In this document: one piece after another, positions 2,930-17,880 of the stretch
Layout: every line of letters starts with the position of its first letter
Numbering within the stretch: position 1 is the stretch's first letter
NCBI GenBank assembly: GCA_028282195.1
Contig: JANQII010000102.1
Coordinates: 20,799 to 84,798 of the forward strand
DNA length: 64,000 nt
DNA from: Prolixibacteraceae bacterium
GTDB taxonomy: Bacteria > Bacteroidota > Bacteroidia > Bacteroidales > Prolixibacteraceae
Direction of reading: 5' to 3'
The notes under the pieces: generated by a model
Databases searched by the model: none
Told to the model about the DNA's origin: nothing
What the model saw: the letters and a program-made list of their open reading frames with translations, nothing else
Made by a program: the position numbers and the translations under genes

Positions 2930-3688
2930 ATGAATTTCAATTTACCTTTACTACCTGAACGCCCTGAAAAACCAAGGCAATCTGGTCTTACTATGGTTAT
3001 GGACAAAGGATTAAGCACACGGGAAGCTGAAAACCTTTGTGAAGTAGCATCTTCTTATATTGATATGGTAAAACTTGGTTTTGGCACAGGCCTTATAACA
3101 CCAAACACAAAAGAAAAAATCAAAATATATCAAAGTGCTGGAATCACCCCTTATTTCGGTGGAACCATGTTTGAAGCCTTTATTGCCCGCGACATGTTCG
3201 ATGAGTTCATACAATTTATTAGCGAATGCGGAGTGAACATGGCTGAAGTATCTGATGGCGTACTTCCAATTGAACACAATAAAAAATGTGAATACATTCA
3301 AGGTCTCGCTAAAGATTTTACGGTTCTTTCAGAAGTTGGTACAAAACTAAAAGGAAAGGAAATCAGCAATGAAGAGTGGATTAACTGGATGAAAAAAGAA
3401 CTGGAAGCCGGTGCCTGGAAGGTAATTGCCGAAGCCAGGGAAAGTGGTAATATTGGCATTTACAAAGAAGATGGTTCTGCTAACAGCCAATTGATCCTTG
3501 ATATACGTGAACAAATTGATGTTTCTAAGATATTGTGGGAATCTCCATTAAAAAGCCAGCAGGTGTGGTTTATCAAATTGCTTGGTCCTAACGTGAATCT
3601 TGGAAATATTAATAGCAATGAAGTAATTGCTTTGGAAACACTTCGCCTTGGATTAAGAGGGGACACATTACTCAGTTTTCTTCCTTAA
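2930..3688 (+). CDS. comA: Phosphosulfolactate synthase (ComA family)
   Basis: 252 aa; DKGLSTREAENL, KLGFGTGLI, GITPYFGGTMFEAF, EVSDG, ESPLKSQQVWFIKLLGPNVNLGNI resemble ComA. Confidence 0.85.
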   Translation: MNFNLPLLPERPEKPRQSGLTMVMDKGLSTREAENLCEVASSYIDMVKLGFGTGLITPNTKEKIKIYQSAGITPYFGGTMFEAFIARDMFDEFIQFISECGVNMAEVSDGVLPIEHNKKCEYIQGLAKDFTVLSEVGTKLKGKEISNEEWINWMKKELEAGAWKVIAEARESGNIGIYKEDGSANSQLILDIREQIDVSKILWESPLKSQQVWFIKLLGPNVNLGNINSNEVIALETLRLGLRGDTLLSFLP

Positions 3689-3819
3689 TACTAATTTACC
3701 AAAATTTAACACAAGCGAAATAAAATCATAAAGACATCATAATCAGAAACTTGAAACAATTACCAAAAGATAAAACTCAACTCTTATTTAGATTTAATAA
3801 AAATTTACACCGGTTTTCT

Positions 3820-3849
3820 TTTGATTTTTAAATCTTAAGTCTATTTTTG
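3820..3849 (+). promoter_or_regulatory. Bacteroidota sigma-ABfr-type promoter upstream of the leader peptide
   Basis: TTTG (3820-3823), 18-nt spacer, TATTTTTG (3842-3849), matching TTTG-N~19-TAnnTTTG. Confidence 0.7.
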
Positions 3850-3880
3850 AATCGTATTAAAAGACAAAAAAGTCTCATAA

Positions 3881-3973
3881 ATGAGTAATCACACTTCTGT
3901 AAATAAAATGATGAATGTTGCATGTGCTATGATGTGTATGTGTAGAAATCATTTTGTGCAGAAGGAAGAATGA
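3881..3973 (+). CDS. Putative Cys/Met-rich leader peptide (30 aa), attenuator uORF
   Basis: ATG at 3881: MSNHTSVNKMMNVACAMMCMCRNHFVQKEE, stop TGA 3971-3973; 3 Cys and 5 non-initiator Met, mostly in codons 10-21; followed by a terminator just before the operon. Confidence 0.7.
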   Translation: MSNHTSVNKMMNVACAMMCMCRNHFVQKEE

Positions 3974-4039
3974 ATATGAACTAATATATTGAATCGATAT
4001 AAACTCAAAAGCCCTTCTGTACCAGCAGAGGGGTTTTTT
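3892..4039 (+). promoter_or_regulatory. Candidate trp-like transcription attenuator (segments 1-4)
   Basis: Seg1 CTTCTGTA 3894-3901; seg2 GTGCAGAAGG 3956-3965; seg3 CCCTTCTGTAC 4012-4022; seg4 CAGAGGGG 4026-4033. 1:2 (8 bp), 2:3 (10 bp, one GU) and 3:4 (8 bp + U-run) pairings are mutually exclusive. Confidence 0.7.
4012..4039 (+). terminator. Rho-independent terminator (attenuator 3:4 hairpin)
   Basis: CCCTTCTG-TACCAG-CAGAGGGG followed by TTTTTT (4034-4039), immediately upstream of the next CDS. Confidence 0.8.
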
Positions 4040-4052
4040 ATTGAAAAAAATT

Positions 4053-4949
4053 ATGGTTGAACTTTTAAAAACAAATCGAACTGATTCGCTAAACACCAGG
4101 GAACTGATCCTCCAGAAGTACCTTAAGAGAGAACTCAAAACCGGGGTCTTTCTGCAAACGTGCAACAGAATTGAATGGTACAAGGGAGATGGGGACATTA
4201 CCGAAAATATTGCTCGTCACCTGTTTCGTGTTGTAGCAGGATTAGAGTCTGCTCTAATTGGAGAAACTGCAATTGCCGGACAAGTTAAGCGTGCCTATCG
4301 TCTGGCTCATGAAAACGGAAGGCTAAGCAAGAGCCTTCACAAACTTTTTCAAACATCATTTTTTGTTGCAAAAAAGGTGAAGAGGGAAACAGGCATTTCA
4401 AAAGGTGCAATGTCCCATGGGCAATCAGTTGTACAAATTCTTCAGAATAAAAAAACGAACCTTGCGAACCAAAAGGTCACGCTTATTGGAGCAAACAATC
4501 TTACTGAAAGTATTATCCGGTTTTTAAGGTCTAAGGGGGCAAGCGTTTTCTTTATTGGAAACAGAACTTTTGAAAAGGCATCAACCCTTGCAAGCAAATA
4601 TGACGGTAAAGCTTTCCAATTTCAGGAATTACCAAACATCCTGGAAGAAACGGACATTCTTATCTCTGCCACTTCAGCCCCACACCAGGTATTAAAAAAA
4701 GAGCAGCTTCCTAAAAACAAGCAAATGATACTATTTGATTTAGCTGTTCCCCGGGATATCGACCCAAGGGTTTCTGACCTGGAGAATATGGAACTATTCA
4801 ATATTCAGGAAATTGAACAAGAAATTATTAAAAACCGCAAACTGCGCTCTGAAGAAGTTTTAAAAGCTGAAGCTATTATTGAGTATGAACTGGAACGTTT
4901 CTTTGAAACTTTCGCAAAATCAGTTAACCAACAAAAACTTGCAGTATGA
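4053..4949 (+). CDS. Short glutamyl-tRNA reductase-like protein (HemA paralogue lacking most of the C-terminal dimerisation domain)
   Basis: ~298 aa; catalytic QTCNRIEWY, VAGLESALIGE.AIAGQVKRAY, NAD-binding VTLIGANNLTE; ends soon after the NAD domain. ATG at 4053 preferred over TTG 4041. Confidence 0.85.
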   Translation: MVELLKTNRTDSLNTRELILQKYLKRELKTGVFLQTCNRIEWYKGDGDITENIARHLFRVVAGLESALIGETAIAGQVKRAYRLAHENGRLSKSLHKLFQTSFFVAKKVKRETGISKGAMSHGQSVVQILQNKKTNLANQKVTLIGANNLTESIIRFLRSKGASVFFIGNRTFEKASTLASKYDGKAFQFQELPNILEETDILISATSAPHQVLKKEQLPKNKQMILFDLAVPRDIDPRVSDLENMELFNIQEIEQEIIKNRKLRSEEVLKAEAIIEYELERFFETFAKSVNQQKLAV

Positions 4950-5176
4950 AAGAAAAAGCCTACAGGAGCGTAGCTAAAACAGTTTCATGGAGGACACTTG
5001 GAACAATAGACACCATAATAATTGCGTGGTTTGTTGTAGGGAAACTTGAATTTGCAATTACAATTGGTGGCGTAGAGTTACTTACAAAAATGGTTTTGTA
5101 CTACTTTCATGAGCGTACATGGAACAAAATAAAGTTTGGAAAAACAAACGAATCAGATATTGAATATCACATTTAA
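4946..5176 (+). CDS. DUF2061 small membrane protein
   Basis: 76 aa; KTVSWRTLGTIDTIIIAWFVVGKLEFAITIGGVELLTKMVLYYFHERTW is typical of DUF2061; ATGA overlap with the preceding CDS. Confidence 0.85.
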   Translation: MKEKAYRSVAKTVSWRTLGTIDTIIIAWFVVGKLEFAITIGGVELLTKMVLYYFHERTWNKIKFGKTNESDIEYHI

Positions 5177-5177
5177 A

Positions 5178-5645
5178 ATGGAAAAGAACTTTTTACCCAT
5201 AGCAATCAATATTTCCGGCGAAAAGATACTTGTCATCGGCGGAGGCAAATCTGCCTGGAGCAAAATTCAAATCCTGCAACGTTTTGATGCGGAGATTGAA
5301 GTGATTGCGAAAGAAGTTAGTCGGGAGATTAAGGAAAGTGGCATTCAATATAAAGAAAAAGCATACGAAGCTCCAGATTTAAACGGATACCTGATGCTTT
5401 ACTCTTGCACCAATAATCCTGAGTTGGATAAACAAATTGAAAGTGATGGCAGAAAAGCAGGAGTACTAGTCAATATCCATGACAAACCAAGGCTATGCCA
5501 GTTTGTTTCACCGGCCATTTACCAGGATGGTGATATTCGGGTAGCAGTAAGCTCAAATGCAAAAAATGTATTTGCATCCATACAGATTAGAAATGAGATA
5601 CAAGAATTTTTAGAAAACAAAAAAGCTAAAGAGATAGAAAGATGA
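5178..5645 (+). CDS. Precorrin-2 dehydrogenase / sirohydrochlorin ferrochelatase (Met8/CysG N-terminal-like)
   Basis: MEKNFLPIAINISGEKILVIGGGKSAWSKIQIL Rossmann motif and siroheme operon context; ATG 5178 preferred over 5136. Confidence 0.85.
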   Translation: MEKNFLPIAINISGEKILVIGGGKSAWSKIQILQRFDAEIEVIAKEVSREIKESGIQYKEKAYEAPDLNGYLMLYSCTNNPELDKQIESDGRKAGVLVNIHDKPRLCQFVSPAIYQDGDIRVAVSSNAKNVFASIQIRNEIQEFLENKKAKEIER

Positions 5646-7432
5646 GCATCAAATTAAGCCCATTAAATGAGAACCAGCTTAAAGCCCTCGAACAGCTTAG
5701 CGAGGGATTGGAGAAAGAGCAAGCCATTTGGTTGAATGGCTACTTTCAGGGGCTGACCGGAGCAAAACTTAACGGACATGCCCCACAGGCCAGTAATGGA
5801 GAAAGCATACCTACTGCTGTTGAGCAAATACCACTGACCATTCTTTATGGTACACATACAGGCCGTTGCGAAAACTTAGCAAAAAAGCTATGCGAACTGG
5901 CATCAGGAAAAGGCATTGATTGTAAAATTCACCCAATGGATGATTACAAACCCAGGCAGTTGAAAGATGAAAAGAACCTGTTTGTGATTGTAAGCACCCA
6001 TGGTGAAGGCGAACCTCCTGAAATGGCTGAAGAGTTTCACGAATTCATTATGGGAAAAAGGCTTCCAAAACTAAATGGATTGAATTACTCTGTCCTTGCT
6101 TTGGGAGATAAAAGTTATAAACTGTTCTGCCAAACAGGAATTGATATTGACAATGCATTGAAAAAAGCCGGTGCAGCAGAACTGTATCCCATTGTGAAAT
6201 GTGATGTTGATTTTGAAGATAATGCTGAAAGCTGGACAAATGCTGTAATTGATAAACTGGCAAGTACATTACCTGCCCAAACTCAATCATCAGCAAGTTT
6301 AAAGCAGCAAGTTGAAAGCAAAACGTATACAAAAAAGAATCCTTTTAAAGCAACGGTAATTGATAAAACCAGAATAACCGGACGAGATTCCGATAAGGAA
6401 GTATTTCATTTAGAAATATCGCTGGAAGATTCCGGTATAACTTATGAACCAGGTGATTCCTTAGGAATAATCACTGAAAATCCGCCACAGTTGGTAAATC
6501 AGATTATTGAAAAACTGGGAGTTGATAAATCAGAACTGGTTGAAACAAAAGAAGGGCAAGTACCTTTTGAAGAAGCATTGAAGCATCATGTTGAAATAAG
6601 CCTGTTAACACGGGATGTTATTCAAAAATATGCAGACAAAACACAAACAGAAGGTGTTGCAAAGATTCTGGAGGATGATCAGTTACTTGATGAGTATTTG
6701 TATGGTTACGATGTTTTAGACTTGTTAACTGAGTTTCCTTTTGAGTTTACTGCTTCTGCTTTTATTGAATTATTAAGGCCGCTTCCGGCACGTTTATACT
6801 CAATATCGTCAAGTCAGGCAGCCGTAGAAGATGAAGTCCACATTACGGTTTCCAGGGTAAATTACAACAACAAAGGACGGGAACGGGTTGGCGCCTGTTC
6901 AAGCTTTTTAGCAGACCGAATTGAAGTTGATGATGAGTTATTGATTTATATAGACAAGAACCCAAACTTCAGGCTACCACTAAACGGAACACCAATTATT
7001 ATGGTGGGTGCAGGAACCGGAATTGCCCCTTATCGTGCATTCTTACAGGAAAGGGAAACCAACAACCAAAAAGGCAACAGCTGGCTGTTCTTTGGAGATA
7101 GACGGTTTAATTCTGATTTTCTGTATCAGCTTGAATGGCAGAAACTACTAAAAAAAGGTTACCTGGAGAAAATTCATCTTGCCTTCTCCCGTGATCAGGA
7201 TGAAAAGATTTACGTTCAGCACAAACTGAAAGAAAATCAGGAAGAACTTTTCAAATGGATTGAAAAAGGAGCAAACTTTTACCTCTGTGGCGATATGAAA
7301 TACATGGCCAAAGATGTACAGCAAACCTTGCTTGAAATTATTCAGGCACAAGGGGGTTTAACTCCAGAAAAAGCGAAAGAATACTTTAAAAAATTAAAAA
7401 AAGAAAAACGCTTCCAGGCGGATGTGTATTGA
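5642..7432 (+). CDS. cysJ: Sulfite reductase [NADPH] flavoprotein alpha component
   Basis: 596 aa; flavodoxin (ILYGTHTGRCENLAKKL), FAD (RLYSISSS) and NADPH (VGAGTGIAPYRAFLQER) motifs, C-terminal VY. Confidence 0.95.
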   Translation: MSIKLSPLNENQLKALEQLSEGLEKEQAIWLNGYFQGLTGAKLNGHAPQASNGESIPTAVEQIPLTILYGTHTGRCENLAKKLCELASGKGIDCKIHPMDDYKPRQLKDEKNLFVIVSTHGEGEPPEMAEEFHEFIMGKRLPKLNGLNYSVLALGDKSYKLFCQTGIDIDNALKKAGAAELYPIVKCDVDFEDNAESWTNAVIDKLASTLPAQTQSSASLKQQVESKTYTKKNPFKATVIDKTRITGRDSDKEVFHLEISLEDSGITYEPGDSLGIITENPPQLVNQIIEKLGVDKSELVETKEGQVPFEEALKHHVEISLLTRDVIQKYADKTQTEGVAKILEDDQLLDEYLYGYDVLDLLTEFPFEFTASAFIELLRPLPARLYSISSSQAAVEDEVHITVSRVNYNNKGRERVGACSSFLADRIEVDDELLIYIDKNPNFRLPLNGTPIIMVGAGTGIAPYRAFLQERETNNQKGNSWLFFGDRRFNSDFLYQLEWQKLLKKGYLEKIHLAFSRDQDEKIYVQHKLKENQEELFKWIEKGANFYLCGDMKYMAKDVQQTLLEIIQAQGGLTPEKAKEYFKKLKKEKRFQADVY

Positions 7433-7768
7433 GTTGCGGGTTGCGGGTTACGGGTTACTGTTATCAAATAACTAATGATCAATAATCAATGACCAATAAC
7501 TAATAACAAATGACTATTTACTAATGACTAAAATGAAACAAGATACTGGATGCCTGATGTTGGATACTTGATAGCCCGTAGGGCTAAAACATTAGTAGCC
7601 CGGGGTAAATGATACCGGGAATTCGGGGGAATGCAATCCCGGGATATAATGATCAGGCCATAAAGGCGCAACTGCATTCATTGCAAATAATAATGGATTT
7701 TCATGCGCCGCAAACAAACAAGTAAAAGGAAGCAATGAGAGATAAAATGATTTTAAATACTGAGAAAA
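7433..7768. repeat. Intergenic repeat cluster inside the cysJ-cysI spacer (heptad repeats plus GTA-loop palindrome)
   Basis: gttgcgg gttgcgg gttacgg gttactg; taactaa tgatcaa taatcaa tgaccaa taactaa; TAGCCC-GTA-GGGCTA at 7573-7587. Confidence 0.7.
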
Positions 7769-9466
7769 ATGAGCAACGAAATAGATTGGACAACTCTTTC
7801 AGAAGTTGAAAAAATAAAATATGACAGCAACTACTTACGTGGAACATTGGTTGAAAGTCTGGCTGATCCGGTTACCGGAGCAATCGCTGATGCGGACACT
7901 CAACTATCAAAATTCCATGGGATTTACCAGCAACACGACAGGGATTTGGAGAAAGAACGCAAACGCCAAAAGCTGGAGCCAGCTTTCTCATTCCTGATCC
8001 GTGTGAGGCTTCCCGGGGGTATTGCTACCTCGCAGCAATGGCTACAGATGGATAAACTTGCAGATGAACGTGCCAACGGAACCCTTAAGCTCACTACCCG
8101 TCAGGCATTTCAACTGCATGGTGTAATTAAAAAGAAACTGAAGCCAACCATTCAAGGCATTAACGATGCATTAATGGATACCATTGCTGCCTGTGGTGAT
8201 GTCAACCGCAATGTAATGTCGCATGCCAATCCTGCTGAATCGGAGCTACACGCTGAGGTTTATCAATTGGCTAAAGACATTTCAGCACATTTAACGCCAC
8301 AAACTTCAGCCTACCACGAAATTTGGCTGGATAAAAAATTAATTGCCAATTCCAAATCGGATGTAGAACCCATTTACGGAGATCGCTATTTGCCTCGCAA
8401 ATTCAAAATGGCTGTGGCTATTCCCCCGTATAACGACACGGATATTTTCTCTCAGGACCTGGGCTTCATTGCCATTGAAGAAAAAGGTAAACTAATTGGC
8501 TACAATGTTAGTGTTGGTGGCGGACTTGGCTCTACATTTGGTGTTCCTGAAACCTACCCTCGCTTAGGGGATGTTATTGGTTTTTGTACTCCTGAACAGG
8601 CTGTTGATGTTGCCGAAAAAGTTGTATTGGTTCAAAAAGACTATGGCGACAGGCAAAACCGCAAACATGCCCGCTTAAAATACACCATTGATGATCGTGG
8701 TCTGGCCTGGTTTAAAGACGAGTTAAACAAATATTTGGGATACAAACTACAACCGGCCAAACCTTACACATTTACACGTAATGGCGACCGGTACGGATGG
8801 AAAAAAGGAACAGACGGCAAATGGAGCCTGAACCTGTTTGTAGAAGGTGGACGGGTAAAAAATACAGATCAACTTCAACTTAAAACAGCTTTAAAAGAAG
8901 TTGCAACGGAAGTGCCTGACGCCCAATTCATTTTAACAGGTAACCAGAACTTAATCATTGGAAATACATCTGAAAAGGCCAAAGTAGCAGCCATTCTGAA
9001 AAAATATAATGTTTGGCCGGTTGGGCTTTCAGGATTGCGGCAAAATTCAATCGCCTGTGTTGCAATGAACACTTGTGCCCTTGCCTTTGCAGAAGCCGAA
9101 CGCTACCTGCCAGATTTAATTACTAAAATTGAATCCATTCTGGAAGAACATCGTTTAATAAAAGAAGAGATTATTATTCGAATGACAGGCTGCCCCAATG
9201 GATGCGGTCGCCCTTACCTTGCCGAAATAGCATTCATCGGCAAATCACCTGGGCATTATAACCTCTATTTAGGCGGAAACTTTAATGGAACCCGTTTGAA
9301 TACATTGTATAAAGAAACGCTCTCTGAAGAAGAAATTCTTAATGAACTACGGCCAATTATTGCCGATTTTGCTGAAAACAGAAATCCAAAAGAAAGATTT
9401 GGGGACTTTGTAATCAGAAAAGGATATGTGAAAGAAATTAAAGAAGGAAAAGAATTTAAACATTGA
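7769..9466 (+). CDS. cysI: Sulfite reductase hemoprotein beta subunit
   Basis: 565 aa; LTTRQAFQLHG, siroheme/4Fe-4S motifs CVAMNTCALAFAEAERYLP and RMTGCPNGCGRPYLAEIAFIG. Confidence 0.95.
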   Translation: MSNEIDWTTLSEVEKIKYDSNYLRGTLVESLADPVTGAIADADTQLSKFHGIYQQHDRDLEKERKRQKLEPAFSFLIRVRLPGGIATSQQWLQMDKLADERANGTLKLTTRQAFQLHGVIKKKLKPTIQGINDALMDTIAACGDVNRNVMSHANPAESELHAEVYQLAKDISAHLTPQTSAYHEIWLDKKLIANSKSDVEPIYGDRYLPRKFKMAVAIPPYNDTDIFSQDLGFIAIEEKGKLIGYNVSVGGGLGSTFGVPETYPRLGDVIGFCTPEQAVDVAEKVVLVQKDYGDRQNRKHARLKYTIDDRGLAWFKDELNKYLGYKLQPAKPYTFTRNGDRYGWKKGTDGKWSLNLFVEGGRVKNTDQLQLKTALKEVATEVPDAQFILTGNQNLIIGNTSEKAKVAAILKKYNVWPVGLSGLRQNSIACVAMNTCALAFAEAERYLPDLITKIESILEEHRLIKEEIIIRMTGCPNGCGRPYLAEIAFIGKSPGHYNLYLGGNFNGTRLNTLYKETLSEEEILNELRPIIADFAENRNPKERFGDFVIRKGYVKEIKEGKEFKH

Positions 9467-9469
9467 ATC

Positions 9470-10210
9470 ATGGAGTTACCTTCAATTTTTATTGGTAGAA
9501 AACTAAGCTCCCTAAGCCGCAAGTGGCTGGAAAGCGAGCAAATAAAATTTATTGAACAACCGCTCATCCGGATAAACTATAAAAAACCGCTGTTGGCCTT
9601 TTTTAAGTCATACGGAGATGAACCCAAAAAGTGGGTAGTAACCAGTTCTTATGCAGCCTATTGGTTATTGCGCTTCTCAGACAAAATTGGCTTAAATGAA
9701 AAGGATAAAGTTTATTGCTTGTCTGAAAGACAACAAAGCATTTTAAAAGAATGCAATGTGCAGGCGGTTCGTTCCAAATCACCCAATGCTAAAAGCCTGG
9801 CTGAATTAATTATCAGCGAAGATACCGGATTGAAAGTTATTTATTTAAGAGGCAACAAATCGCTGAACCATTTGCCAGAACAATTGACTGCCGGCAATAT
9901 TGATTGGCAAGCTGTTGAAGTTTACCAAAACACGGCTATTGAGATTTTTCTGAATGAGGTATTTGATGGTTACTTGTTTTTTAGCCCGAGCGGAATAAAA
10001 AGTTACAAGCAAGCCGGGAACTTTCCAGAACCTAAAGCTGATATCCTGGCCATTGGGAATACAACAGCACAAGCAGCATGGAAAGAGTTTCCAAACAGGG
10101 TATTGGTGTCTCCTGAGCAGGAAGAACTTTCGTTTGTAAAATATGCTATTCAGCGAATAAAAGAGAAATTGGATGAACCAGAGGCTGATAGCAGGGTTAT
10201 AGTTGAATAA
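9470..10210 (+). CDS. hemD: Uroporphyrinogen-III synthase
   Basis: 246 aa; VVTSSYAAYWLL, GYLFFSPSGIKSY, AIGNTTAQA; located in a siroheme operon. Confidence 0.8.
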   Translation: MELPSIFIGRKLSSLSRKWLESEQIKFIEQPLIRINYKKPLLAFFKSYGDEPKKWVVTSSYAAYWLLRFSDKIGLNEKDKVYCLSERQQSILKECNVQAVRSKSPNAKSLAELIISEDTGLKVIYLRGNKSLNHLPEQLTAGNIDWQAVEVYQNTAIEIFLNEVFDGYLFFSPSGIKSYKQAGNFPEPKADILAIGNTTAQAAWKEFPNRVLVSPEQEELSFVKYAIQRIKEKLDEPEADSRVIVE

Positions 10211-11051
10211 CAATTATAATCTTTTGGCAAGTACAATTTCCATATTAGGATGTGGCTGGCTAGGCCTCCCGTTTGGCAAGCACCTGTTATTCAAAGGCTT
10301 TCAGGTAAAAGGCTCAGTAACCGCTAAAGAAAAAACCGGTGACCTGGCAAGGTCTGGAGTTGAACCGTTTCAGGTTGTTTTACAAACGAATAAAGCAATT
10401 GTAAGTGATGAGCGCTTTTTTAAAACCGATGTGCTTGTAATTGCCATTCCCCCTGCCCGGGTAGAATCCATTGAATCAATATTTGTACAACAGATTTCAC
10501 AAGTGATCCCATACATTACAAAATATCAAATACCTAAGGTTTTGTTTATTTCTTCTACTTCTGTTTATAATGAAGAAAACCAAATGGTTAAGGAAGATGA
10601 TGTTTTTATTCCAAACAAATCAAGTGGACGTGCTTTATTAATTGCAGAGAAGCTACTTCAGGAACATGAAGCATTTAAAACAACTGTAATTCGCTTTGGG
10701 GGTTTAATCGGGCAAGATCGTAATCCTGCCCGTTTTCTGATTAGGAAAAAAGAAAAATTAAGCGGAACAAAACCCGTCAACTTAATTCATCAGGATGACT
10801 GTATTTCTATTTTGTACCAAATTATTCTTAAAGACATTTGGGGTGAAACGTTTAATGCCTGTTGTCCTGATCATCCAACACGTAAAGCTTTTTACACGAA
10901 AGCTTCCGAGGTTTCCGGGCTTCCTTGTCCAACGATGAGTGATCAAAAAGTAAAATTCAAATTGGTTGACAGCAGCAAATTGGTCAAGATTTTAAATTTT
11001 CAATTCAAGTATAAAAACCCGTTGGATTACCTGGCTGCAAGTAGCGAATAA
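10203..11051 (+). CDS. NAD(P)-dependent epimerase-like SDR protein (YeeZ-like)
   Basis: 282 aa; ISILGCGWLGLPFGKHLLFKGFQVKGSVT, VLFISSTSVYNEENQMVKEDD, HQDDCISIL. Confidence 0.75.
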   Translation: MNNNYNLLASTISILGCGWLGLPFGKHLLFKGFQVKGSVTAKEKTGDLARSGVEPFQVVLQTNKAIVSDERFFKTDVLVIAIPPARVESIESIFVQQISQVIPYITKYQIPKVLFISSTSVYNEENQMVKEDDVFIPNKSSGRALLIAEKLLQEHEAFKTTVIRFGGLIGQDRNPARFLIRKKEKLSGTKPVNLIHQDDCISILYQIILKDIWGETFNACCPDHPTRKAFYTKASEVSGLPCPTMSDQKVKFKLVDSSKLVKILNFQFKYKNPLDYLAASSE

Positions 11052-11084: not shown

Positions 11085-11855
11085 ATGAATAGAGAACAAT
11101 CTTTACATCAAGGATTTATTTCTATAGTTGGTGCCGGACCAGGTGACCCTGATTTGCTAACGGTAAAAGCATTAAAAAGAATTGAGCAAGCCGACGTAAT
11201 TCTTTACGATGCTTTGCATGGAACAGAAATTCTGGAATTAGCTGGTCCAAAAACTGAATTGATTTATGCCGGTAAAGTCTATTGCGATGGACAGCACCCA
11301 ACTGAACGTCAGGAAAAGATTCACGCCCAGCTGAAAAAACTCGCTCTTGAAGGAAAAAAGGTTGTCCGCCTAAAAGCTGGTGACCCTTTTATTTTTGGGC
11401 GTGGTGCTGAAGAACTTGCTTTTTGCTTAAAAGAAGGATTGAATGTTGAAATTATTCCCGGAATTACTGCTGGCCTGGCCGCTGCCACCTGCTTTCATAT
11501 ACCGGTGACATTGCGTAATGTCAATAGTATGGCTTTATTTTATACGGGACATAAACGCAAAGGAGGATTTGATGAAATTGAAGTTGTTGCATCGGTATTG
11601 AAAACCAATGCACCTGTTATTGTCTACATGGGTTTGAAAAACCTGGTTTTATTTTCAAAAGAACTTCTTCAACTTGATATTGCCCCTGAAACCCCTGTTC
11701 AAATAGCCAGTAAAGTTGGGCATTCTGATCAACAACTTTATACAACAAATTTGAAAGAAGCTGAACCGTTTTTAAAAGAAAATGATCCCGTTATGCCAGC
11801 AGTAATTATTTTGGGTAGCTATGCGAATCAGGTAGATAACAAATCTGCTATTTGA
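11085..11855 (+). CDS. cobA: Uroporphyrinogen-III C-methyltransferase
   Basis: 256 aa; GAGPGDPDLLTVKALKRIEQADVILYDAL, RLKAGDPFIFGRGAEEL, PGITAGLAAA. Confidence 0.95.
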   Translation: MNREQSLHQGFISIVGAGPGDPDLLTVKALKRIEQADVILYDALHGTEILELAGPKTELIYAGKVYCDGQHPTERQEKIHAQLKKLALEGKKVVRLKAGDPFIFGRGAEELAFCLKEGLNVEIIPGITAGLAAATCFHIPVTLRNVNSMALFYTGHKRKGGFDEIEVVASVLKTNAPVIVYMGLKNLVLFSKELLQLDIAPETPVQIASKVGHSDQQLYTTNLKEAEPFLKENDPVMPAVIILGSYANQVDNKSAI

Positions 11856-16640: not shown

Positions 16641-17880
16641 TTGAAAAAGAAAAAAGATCGTTTATGATTTTGACACACTCTGCTTTTCGGCCATTATCGC
16701 TAATGGCCTTCAAATTTTTAATCAATGAATTTACAATTTTTTCAGTAATATGTTTACCATACTTTTCGATAGTCTCATATTCACCTTTACTGTGAAATTT
16801 CCTGAAAACCTCCAGTTCAGTATGGTTAATCTCATTTACTTCAGAAATCATAGTTTGAATAACCGGTGATAATTTTTTTGTACTCAACCAATTTGAAAAC
16901 TCATTTTGTTTTTCGTCAATAATGCTTTCAGCTTCGTTTATGTAAATTTTCTTTTTCTCCATATTTTGGTTAACTACTTCTTGTAAATCATCAACATTGT
17001 AAAGGGTAATAAAGTCAAACTCATTCAGTTTCTGGTCTATATTCCGGGGAACACCAAGGTCAATCAATACAGTTTGTTTGCTCGTACTGAATAGTGAAAA
17101 CATCCCCAAATCAATAATTGGCTCTTTAGAGGAAACTGAGCTAACAATAATATCAGCATTATTAATTCCTTCCTTTAGCTTCCTGAAATCTAACACAGTG
17201 CCTTCATATCGTTTTGCGAGTTTTTCAGCTTTTGAAATTGTTCGGTTTGAAACAACAATATTCCTACAAGCTTTTTTGTACAGATTTTTAATAGCTAGTT
17301 CTCCCGTTTCACCTGCCCCAATTAATAGAATCTTTTTATCAGTTAGCTGCTCAAAAATGCTGCTACACTTTTCAACAGCAGCATAGCTAACAGAAAATGC
17401 ACCATTACTTAAGCCCGTTCTTGTTCTGACTTGCTTCCCTGTTTCAAGTGCTTTATAAAAAAGACGTTTAAGAATCTTACCAGCAGAACCAATGTCTTCA
17501 GCATGGTTAATGGCATCTTTTACCTGAGCAACAATTTGATATTCGCCAATAATCATCGATTCTAATCCGGAAATTACCCGAAAAAGATGATTGACTGCAT
17601 CAATGGTCTTAAACTGATAAAAGTATGATTCGATGGAATCTTCCTGAACTTTGGTCTTTAAATAATTAAAAACAGAACCAAATGCCCCTGTGTAATACTT
17701 TTCTTGTGCTGAAAAATAAAACTCGGTACGGTTACACGTTGAGATGATGACCAGCTCATCAAAATGTAGATTCTTTAGTATTATTTTGGATAAGTCGGTA
17801 TATTCTTCCTTGTTGAACGCAAATTTCTCTCGAATATTTACGGGAGCCGATTTATGGCTTAAGCCTACTACCCCAATCAT
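16633..17880 (-). CDS. hemA: Glutamyl-tRNA reductase (full length)
   Basis: 415 aa; GLSHKSAPVNIREKFAF, ISTCNRTEFYF, ISGLESMIIGEYQIVAQVK, full C-terminal dimerisation helix. Confidence 0.97.
   Translation of the reverse strand: MIGVVGLSHKSAPVNIREKFAFNKEEYTDLSKIILKNLHFDELVIISTCNRTEFYFSAQEKYYTGAFGSVFNYLKTKVQEDSIESYFYQFKTIDAVNHLFRVISGLESMIIGEYQIVAQVKDAINHAEDIGSAGKILKRLFYKALETGKQVRTRTGLSNGAFSVSYAAVEKCSSIFEQLTDKKILLIGAGETGELAIKNLYKKACRNIVVSNRTISKAEKLAKRYEGTVLDFRKLKEGINNADIIVSSVSSKEPIIDLGMFSLFSTSKQTVLIDLGVPRNIDQKLNEFDFITLYNVDDLQEVVNQNMEKKKIYINEAESIIDEKQNEFSNWLSTKKLSPVIQTMISEVNEINHTELEVFRKFHSKGEYETIEKYGKHITEKIVNSLIKNLKAISDNGRKAECVKIINDLFSFSNE

Follow-up and report, generated by a model that had tools for sequence, protein, structure and literature searches.

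A predicted cysteine/methionine leader-peptide attenuator in front of a sulfite reductase and siroheme operon of a Prolixibacteraceae bacterium

The sulfite reductase/siroheme operon in the window (the whole 64,000-nucleotide stretch analysed here) is very probably preceded by a ribosome-mediated transcription attenuator that responds to sulfur amino acids. The parts of this element, its mutually exclusive pairings, their conservation, the constraint on the reading frame and the association with sulfur genes are apparent from the sequence and its covariation. The recurrence of leader, terminator and antiterminator in front of sulfur genes in the family, the class and the phylum far exceeds chance.

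The leader region of the window begins with TTTG at 3820-3823, followed by an 18-nt spacer and TATTTTTG at 3842-3849, an arrangement which we take to be the promoter type of Bacteroidota. The leader ORF ends with a stop codon at 3971-3973 (Table 1). An earlier note on this DNA had placed the promoter, the ORF with its Cys codons and stop, and three alternative pairings, and all of these coordinates proved right on direct reading. The terminator described there is also present, with the 3:4 core formed by CCCTTCTG (4012-4019) and CAGAGGGG (4026-4033) and followed by T6 at 4034-4039, but its stem is longer than had been stated, comprising 14 pairs at 4007-4038 with a folding energy of -18.6 kcal/mol. 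The 183-nt leader folds with a z-score of -5.3, none of 200 dinucleotide shuffles being equally good. The 2:3 duplex reaches -16.8 as compared to -6.6 +/- 2.1 in shuffles (1/200), and the 1:2 duplex -12.3 as compared to -8.6 (9/200). A covariance model of the family leaders, applied to the 64-kb window, gave the leader site 120.7 bits and the runner-up 24.5, the former score not being independent, since the model includes the window sequence. A promoter and terminator consensus scan of the window leader returned no matches, because the promoter does not conform to sigma-70 hexamers and the U-run is taken up by the stem.

Table 1. Features of the leader region and of the downstream operon (window coordinates)
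Feature	Position	Strand	Basis
Inverted repeat TTATTTAGATTTAATAAA, possible transcription-factor site	3784..3801	+	motif conserved upstream of leaders
Putative Bacteroidota promoter, TTTG-N18-TATTTTTG	3820..3849	+	read from sequence
Leader peptide ORF, 30 codons, MSNHTSVNKMMNVACAMMCMCRNHFVQKEE	3881..3973	+	sequence; Cys/Met cluster of orthologues; frame-preserving indels
Met/Cys regulatory codon cluster	3908..3943	+	Cys 3923, 3935, 3941; Met 3908, 3911, 3929, 3932, 3938
Segment 1, protector strand, CTTCTGTA	3894..3901	+	pairs with TGCAGAAG 3957-3964
Segment 2, GTGCAGAAGG, within leader ORF, just 5' of stop	3956..3965	+	pairs with CCTTCTGTAC
Intrinsic terminator, 3:4 hairpin: 14 pairs, tetraloop, U-tract	4007..4039	+	-18.6 kcal/mol; 3:4 covariation
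Segment 3, CCTTCTGTAC, common to antiterminator and terminator	4013..4022	+	2:3 and 3:4 pairing, covariation
hemA2, shortened glutamyl-tRNA-reductase-like, first gene of operon	4053..4949	+	TIGR01035 profile positions 92-333 of 416; Pfam GlutR_N (partial), Shikimate_DH
DUF2061 membrane protein gene	4946..5176	+	PF09834
Siroheme synthase N-terminal-type (precorrin-2 dehydrogenase), start probably ATG 5178	5136..5645	+	TIGR01470, PF13241
cysJ, sulfite reductase flavoprotein	5642..7432	+	TIGR01931 above cut-off
cysI, sulfite reductase hemoprotein	7769..9466	+	TIGR02041 above cut-off
Uroporphyrinogen-III synthase family (HemD)	9470..10210	+	PF02602
NAD(P)-binding SDR/epimerase-like protein	10203..11051	+	weak Pfam and NCBIfam matches, below cut-off
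Uroporphyrinogen-III C-methyltransferase (SUMT, cobA/cysG C-terminal)	11085..11855	+	TIGR01469 above cut-off

The identity of the operon as one for sulfite reduction and siroheme synthesis, as had been proposed, is upheld by matches of CysJ, CysI and SUMT to models of equivalog level. The genome contains two glutamyl-tRNA reductase (GluTR) genes, the operon copy at 4053-4949 and another at about 16894-17601 on the minus strand; the operon copy is short, with 298 amino acids, and covers the hemA profile only from position 92 to position 333. A search of genome contigs with the hemA2 protein gave a single match, a distant relative from Nitrospinota. The gap between cysJ and cysI (7433-7768) is unusually long and repeat-rich, the repeats being GGTTGCGGGTTACGGGTTAC and units similar to AATGACTAATAAC. 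The gene adjoining the leader upstream (2930-3688) encodes another sulfur-related enzyme, phosphosulfolactate synthase (ComA, PF02679).

Conservation of the uORF and its Cys/Met cluster, by which the earlier note had proposed to judge its reading, was found in front of the three closest operons that start with a hemA-like gene and of one operon from another family. Within the family, the three hemA2 orthologues closest to that of the window (53-54% protein identity) are preceded by the leaders MRNSSENKMNRMTCMMCMCCGIYFKQRDNGL and MMMNFSEITMCKMACMMCMCCAKHFEQKN (two of the genomes are near-identical), after which CTTCTG...CAGAGGGG and a U-run lie directly 5' of the hemA2 start. In the other family, which belongs to the same order, hemA2 also opens the operon (L071) and follows an unrelated leader, MVNFKTMKYNLNINRNYVMCADMCWMCSMPFIYQRV, whose stems differ from those of the window (ATCAAAGGG / CCTTTTGAT) while the logic is alike. 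L071 is the only order-level hemA2 that clearly opens its operon; no leader stands directly in front of the remaining eight of nine, most of which are operon-internal.

The seed motif ATGATGTGYATGTGY occurs in 55/141 genomes of the family, and a reversed control pattern gave one match. Outside the family many seed matches are chance matches within coding regions. As retrieval by the seed is biased, operons were also collected by their DUF2061 protein, that is, blind to the leader, and a Cys/Met leader ORF was found within 300 nt before 42 of the 44 DUF2061-first operons of the family, compared to none of 16 true hemA genes and 48/3000 (1.6%) random windows. In a class-wide search, distant DUF2061 genes had no recognisable Cys leader. 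Altogether 59 non-redundant leaders were assembled, 40 through the Cys/Met seed, in which the conservation of MMCMC is given by construction, and 19 through genes, which are free of this bias.

Cys/Met leaders also precede genes for OsmC, carbonic anhydrase, a PLP-dependent protein of the cysteine-synthase type and a PAPS_reductase-fold protein, read as cysD. A second leader in the genome of the window (L212), MNYTFKNMCMCCCEITTRGRYI, has its own terminator and stands before a cysK-like gene, presumably cysK as recognised from its start sequence; the cysD and cysH genes of this genome have no such leader. The carbonic anhydrase and OsmC genes carry Cys/Met leaders of their own (L088, L094 and L096, L117, L118, L120, L130, L131), which suggests sulfur-linked roles of these proteins in Bacteroidota. 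In another family, a TonB-dependent receptor gene is preceded at a distance of about 50 nt by short ORFs ending in S(S/Q)MMCMC(W) (L043, L045, L046), which are perhaps a Cys/Met-sensing leader of a different type.

The covariance model detected distant loci in the class and the phylum. It matched 63 of 296 class genomes, a figure that is not a count of leaders, as most of the weak matches are unconfirmed. Leaders were also seen in further classes of the phylum, where they stand in front of genes resembling cysH and metY. In several other families two Cys/Met leaders stand in series, namely before metY (L221, L222), cysH (L224) and a probable sulfite reductase gene (L223, L225, L226, L227, L230), the latter judged from its start sequence; metY was identified by Pfam matches to similar proteins and cysH by PF01507. 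In most cases each tandem unit possesses its own terminator and 2:3 complementarity, and at two metY loci (L229, L236) the terminator of the second unit was not resolved by the terminator script. The control of siroheme and sulfite reductase genes put forward originally is supported, but it is not confined to this operon: by sequence, the Cys/Met leader belongs to a multi-gene regulon across the phylum and is not specific to the operon of the window.

On the promoter side, the box TAnnTTTG (-7 box) is present 15-75 nt, typically 26-50 nt, 5' of the leader ORF in 48/59 leaders, compared to a mean of 2.9 and a maximum of 9 in shuffles. Further upstream, some 85-111 nt before the leader start, 12/59 leaders have a motif TTTATTTAGAnTnAATAAA. 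This inverted repeat lies 5' of the promoter and resembles a transcription-factor site; its copy at 3784-3801 is the only one in the 64-kb window, and it is also found before L079, L090, L095, L097, L122, L152 and others. Between the -7 box and the leader ORF of L078, L087, L090, L095, L097, L101 and others lies a palindrome of CRP-like form, TGTGACAAAAGTCAC(A), which in genus g6 and others is directly 3' of the promoter; the window has AGACAAAAAAGTCT at the same position.

An intrinsic terminator was detected in 58/59 non-redundant leaders. The 2:3 duplex has a mean energy of -14.0 kcal/mol, compared to -8.1 for dinucleotide-shuffled sequences, with 47/59 leaders at p<=0.05; for the 1:2 duplex the means are -13.9 and -8.7, and only 37/59 leaders are significant singly. 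Covariation of all three helices, the second expectation raised at the outset, is observed in an alignment of 53 sequences. The 1:2 helix is 83.3% paired with 31 double-change cells (13.8 in shuffles), the 2:3 helix 91.9% with 28 (10.9) and the 3:4 helix 98.5% with 36 (8.8), and for each helix 0/500 shuffles reached the observed count, although these counts are inflated by the relatedness of the sequences. Pairing drops sharply when the partners are slid out of register. The joint replacement of whole segments with pairing kept, seen in unrelated leaders as CGGAAGA/TCTTCCG, ATATGGAGGAGA/TCTTCCATAT and TGTGGAGGG/CCCTTCACA, is a stronger argument for the predicted helices than the double-change counts.

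The ORF is constrained as a reading frame. The distance from the start to segment 1 is constant modulo 3 in 53/53 leaders, and the phase between the last Cys codon and segment 2 is divided 45/8, while no phase is kept between the stop and segment 3 (20/17/16); indels preserve the frame within the ORF and not beyond it. Before segment 2 the 53 aligned leaders contain on average 3.8 Cys and 4.7 Met codons, with a minimum of 2 each. Speaking against the reading, no synonymous excess was found in the core of the ORF, where 42 synonymous and 209 non-synonymous substitutions were counted; constraint is limited to the Cys/Met run. The median distance from the end of the last Cys codon to segment 2 is 13 nt, and that from segment 2 to the stop 11 nt. 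Given the footprint of the ribosome, this geometry fits an attenuator in which segment 2 would be free when the ribosome is at the control codons and masked when it is at the stop. Of the trp/his-type arrangement invoked in the earlier note, control codons, terminator, antiterminator, protector and spacing were all found.

In simulated folds with segment 3 just made and a ribosome on the last Cys codon, the 2:3 pairing forms in 57/58 leaders, and with the ribosome at the stop or absent the 3:4 pairing forms in 58/58. At full-length equilibrium the terminator prevails over the antiterminator in 57/58 even with a stalled ribosome, hence antitermination must be kinetic and timing matters. In the window leader the start of the first Cys codon is 22 nt beyond the 3' end of segment 1; a Cys-stalled ribosome is therefore not clearly placed over that segment as it is in trp, and the freeing of segment 2 is the key to the switch.

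Leader translation, termination and the response to cysteine or methionine may be pictured from these elements as follows. RNA polymerase would start near 3856, as judged from the -7 box, followed by a ribosome that translates the 30 codons of the leader. Given an ample supply of Cys-tRNA, and perhaps of Met-tRNA, this ribosome would reach the stop and cover segment 2, the 3:4 hairpin would form and transcription would end before hemA2; if the leader is not translated, segments 1 and 2 would pair and the terminator would again form. A shortage of charged tRNA would stall the ribosome in the Met/Cys cluster, the last Cys codon of which ends about 13 nt before segment 2. Segment 2 would then pair with the nascent segment 3, the terminator would not form and the sulfite reductase/siroheme operon would be transcribed.

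The sensed signal is predicted to be either Cys alone or Cys together with Met. The set of genes favours cysteine, while the codon runs, which mix Cys and Met, allow both. That the same attenuator gauges methionine, or both amino acids as a measure of sulfur amino-acid supply, is a genuine though tentative possibility. Met codons exceed Cys codons before segment 2 and the two alternate (MCMCMC), a ribosome stalled at the first Met pair (3908) would cover segment 1 while the first Cys codon (3923) lies beyond it, and similar leaders precede metY in other families. However, the downstream genes are mostly on the cysteine side (sulfite reduction, cysH, cysD, cysK/M), some sulfite reductase leaders have 4-5 Cys in the run and Met only before it (MKMMNTACCCCC), and AUG codons near starts are common by chance. 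Since Met codons are as abundant as Cys codons, the 'cysteine' of the original proposal may better be worded as 'sulfur amino acids'.

An action of the leader mainly on the translation of hemA2, by coupling or reinitiation and not by termination, would be in line with the short distance of 79 nt between the leader stop and the ATG at 4053. It is nevertheless very unlikely, as a canonical terminator with a U-tract intervenes in nearly all leaders and the first gene is 150-290 nt farther downstream at some loci (L078, L110, L133). Slightly less probable still is a functional Cys-rich micro-peptide, for example a metal-binding one, with an ordinary terminator behind it. The peptide is indeed conserved and Cys-rich, and the terminator is 3' of its ORF, but residues beyond the Cys/Met run are free to vary, and where the ends are conserved, as QK at the C-terminus and SS(E) at the N-terminus, they overlap the RNA segments that pair; moreover, the terminator is directly 5' of the first gene of the operon, and the 2:3 complementarity would be left unexplained. 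The least credible alternative, to be given hardly any weight, is a riboswitch binding cysteine or a metabolite, in which the ORF is incidental: the strong terminator, the alternative hairpins and the sulfur genes downstream would suit it, but the window leader and five related loci match no Rfam family at the gathering threshold, S-box, SAM riboswitch and T-box included, one stem sequence readily substitutes for another from locus to locus while no aptamer core is conserved, and indels preserve the reading frame. What stays constant is the Cys/Met codons and the pairings.

The attenuator reading, extended to the phylum, gives about an even chance that much of sulfur assimilation in Bacteroidota is under Cys/Met attenuators in place of riboswitches, some of them in tandem, reading Cys and Met as a combined gauge. 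If so, tandem pairs would either multiply termination or require stalling twice, and the purpose of two attenuators in series is a question which they raise. Such leaders would provide RNA-level control of sulfur assimilation for a phylum in which Rfam has no matching element at these loci, and would imply close coupling of transcription and translation in Bacteroidota. They would also bring OsmC, carbonic anhydrase, DUF2061 and the shortened GluTR-like gene under the control of sulfur amino acids, a clue to the function of these proteins.

The logic and anatomy of attenuation are known from trp and his, while for a Cys/Met attenuator regulon in Bacteroidota and its tandem arrays no description was found in Rfam or in the literature searchable as full text; a prior mention (e.g. 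Lopatovskaya et al. 2010) is possible. S-box/SAM riboswitches and T-boxes likewise control sulfur amino-acid genes through RNA-level termination, in other phyla, but the present leaders are without an aptamer core and depend on a reading frame. Within the same phylum, leader-peptide attenuation was suggested upstream of amino-acid biosynthesis operons of Flavobacterium psychrophilum, where the main text of the report gives no leader and names no cysteine or sulfur operon (PMC9723704).

Cys-rich uORFs before cys genes are shared with mycobacteria, in which polycysteine leaderless uORFs are reported to be cysteine-responsive (Canestrari et al. 2020, as cited in PMC9094748 and PMC13236596), and such uORFs were predicted in Actinobacteria without a conserved terminator hairpin (PMC1262725). 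In contrast to those, the leaders described here have an intrinsic terminator, covarying 1:2, 2:3 and 3:4 helices and Met mixed with Cys. A leaderless start, with AUG at the 5' end of the transcript, was not seen, as the -7 box is 15-75 nt upstream in 48/59 leaders, with the start site placed from that box.

The closest resemblance in anatomy is to the E. coli-type trp, his, thr, leu and phe attenuators, which similarly have a leader ORF with control codons, translated in those systems and predicted to be so here, together with segments 1-4, a protector, an antiterminator and an intrinsic terminator, and in which a ribosome at the stop masks segment 2, as it would here. Unlike in those systems, the control codons here are Cys and Met and are located between segments 1 and 2, the hosts are Bacteroidota, several loci possess two units in series, and the operons are those for sulfate/sulfite assimilation, siroheme, cysK/M, OsmC, carbonic anhydrase and metY.
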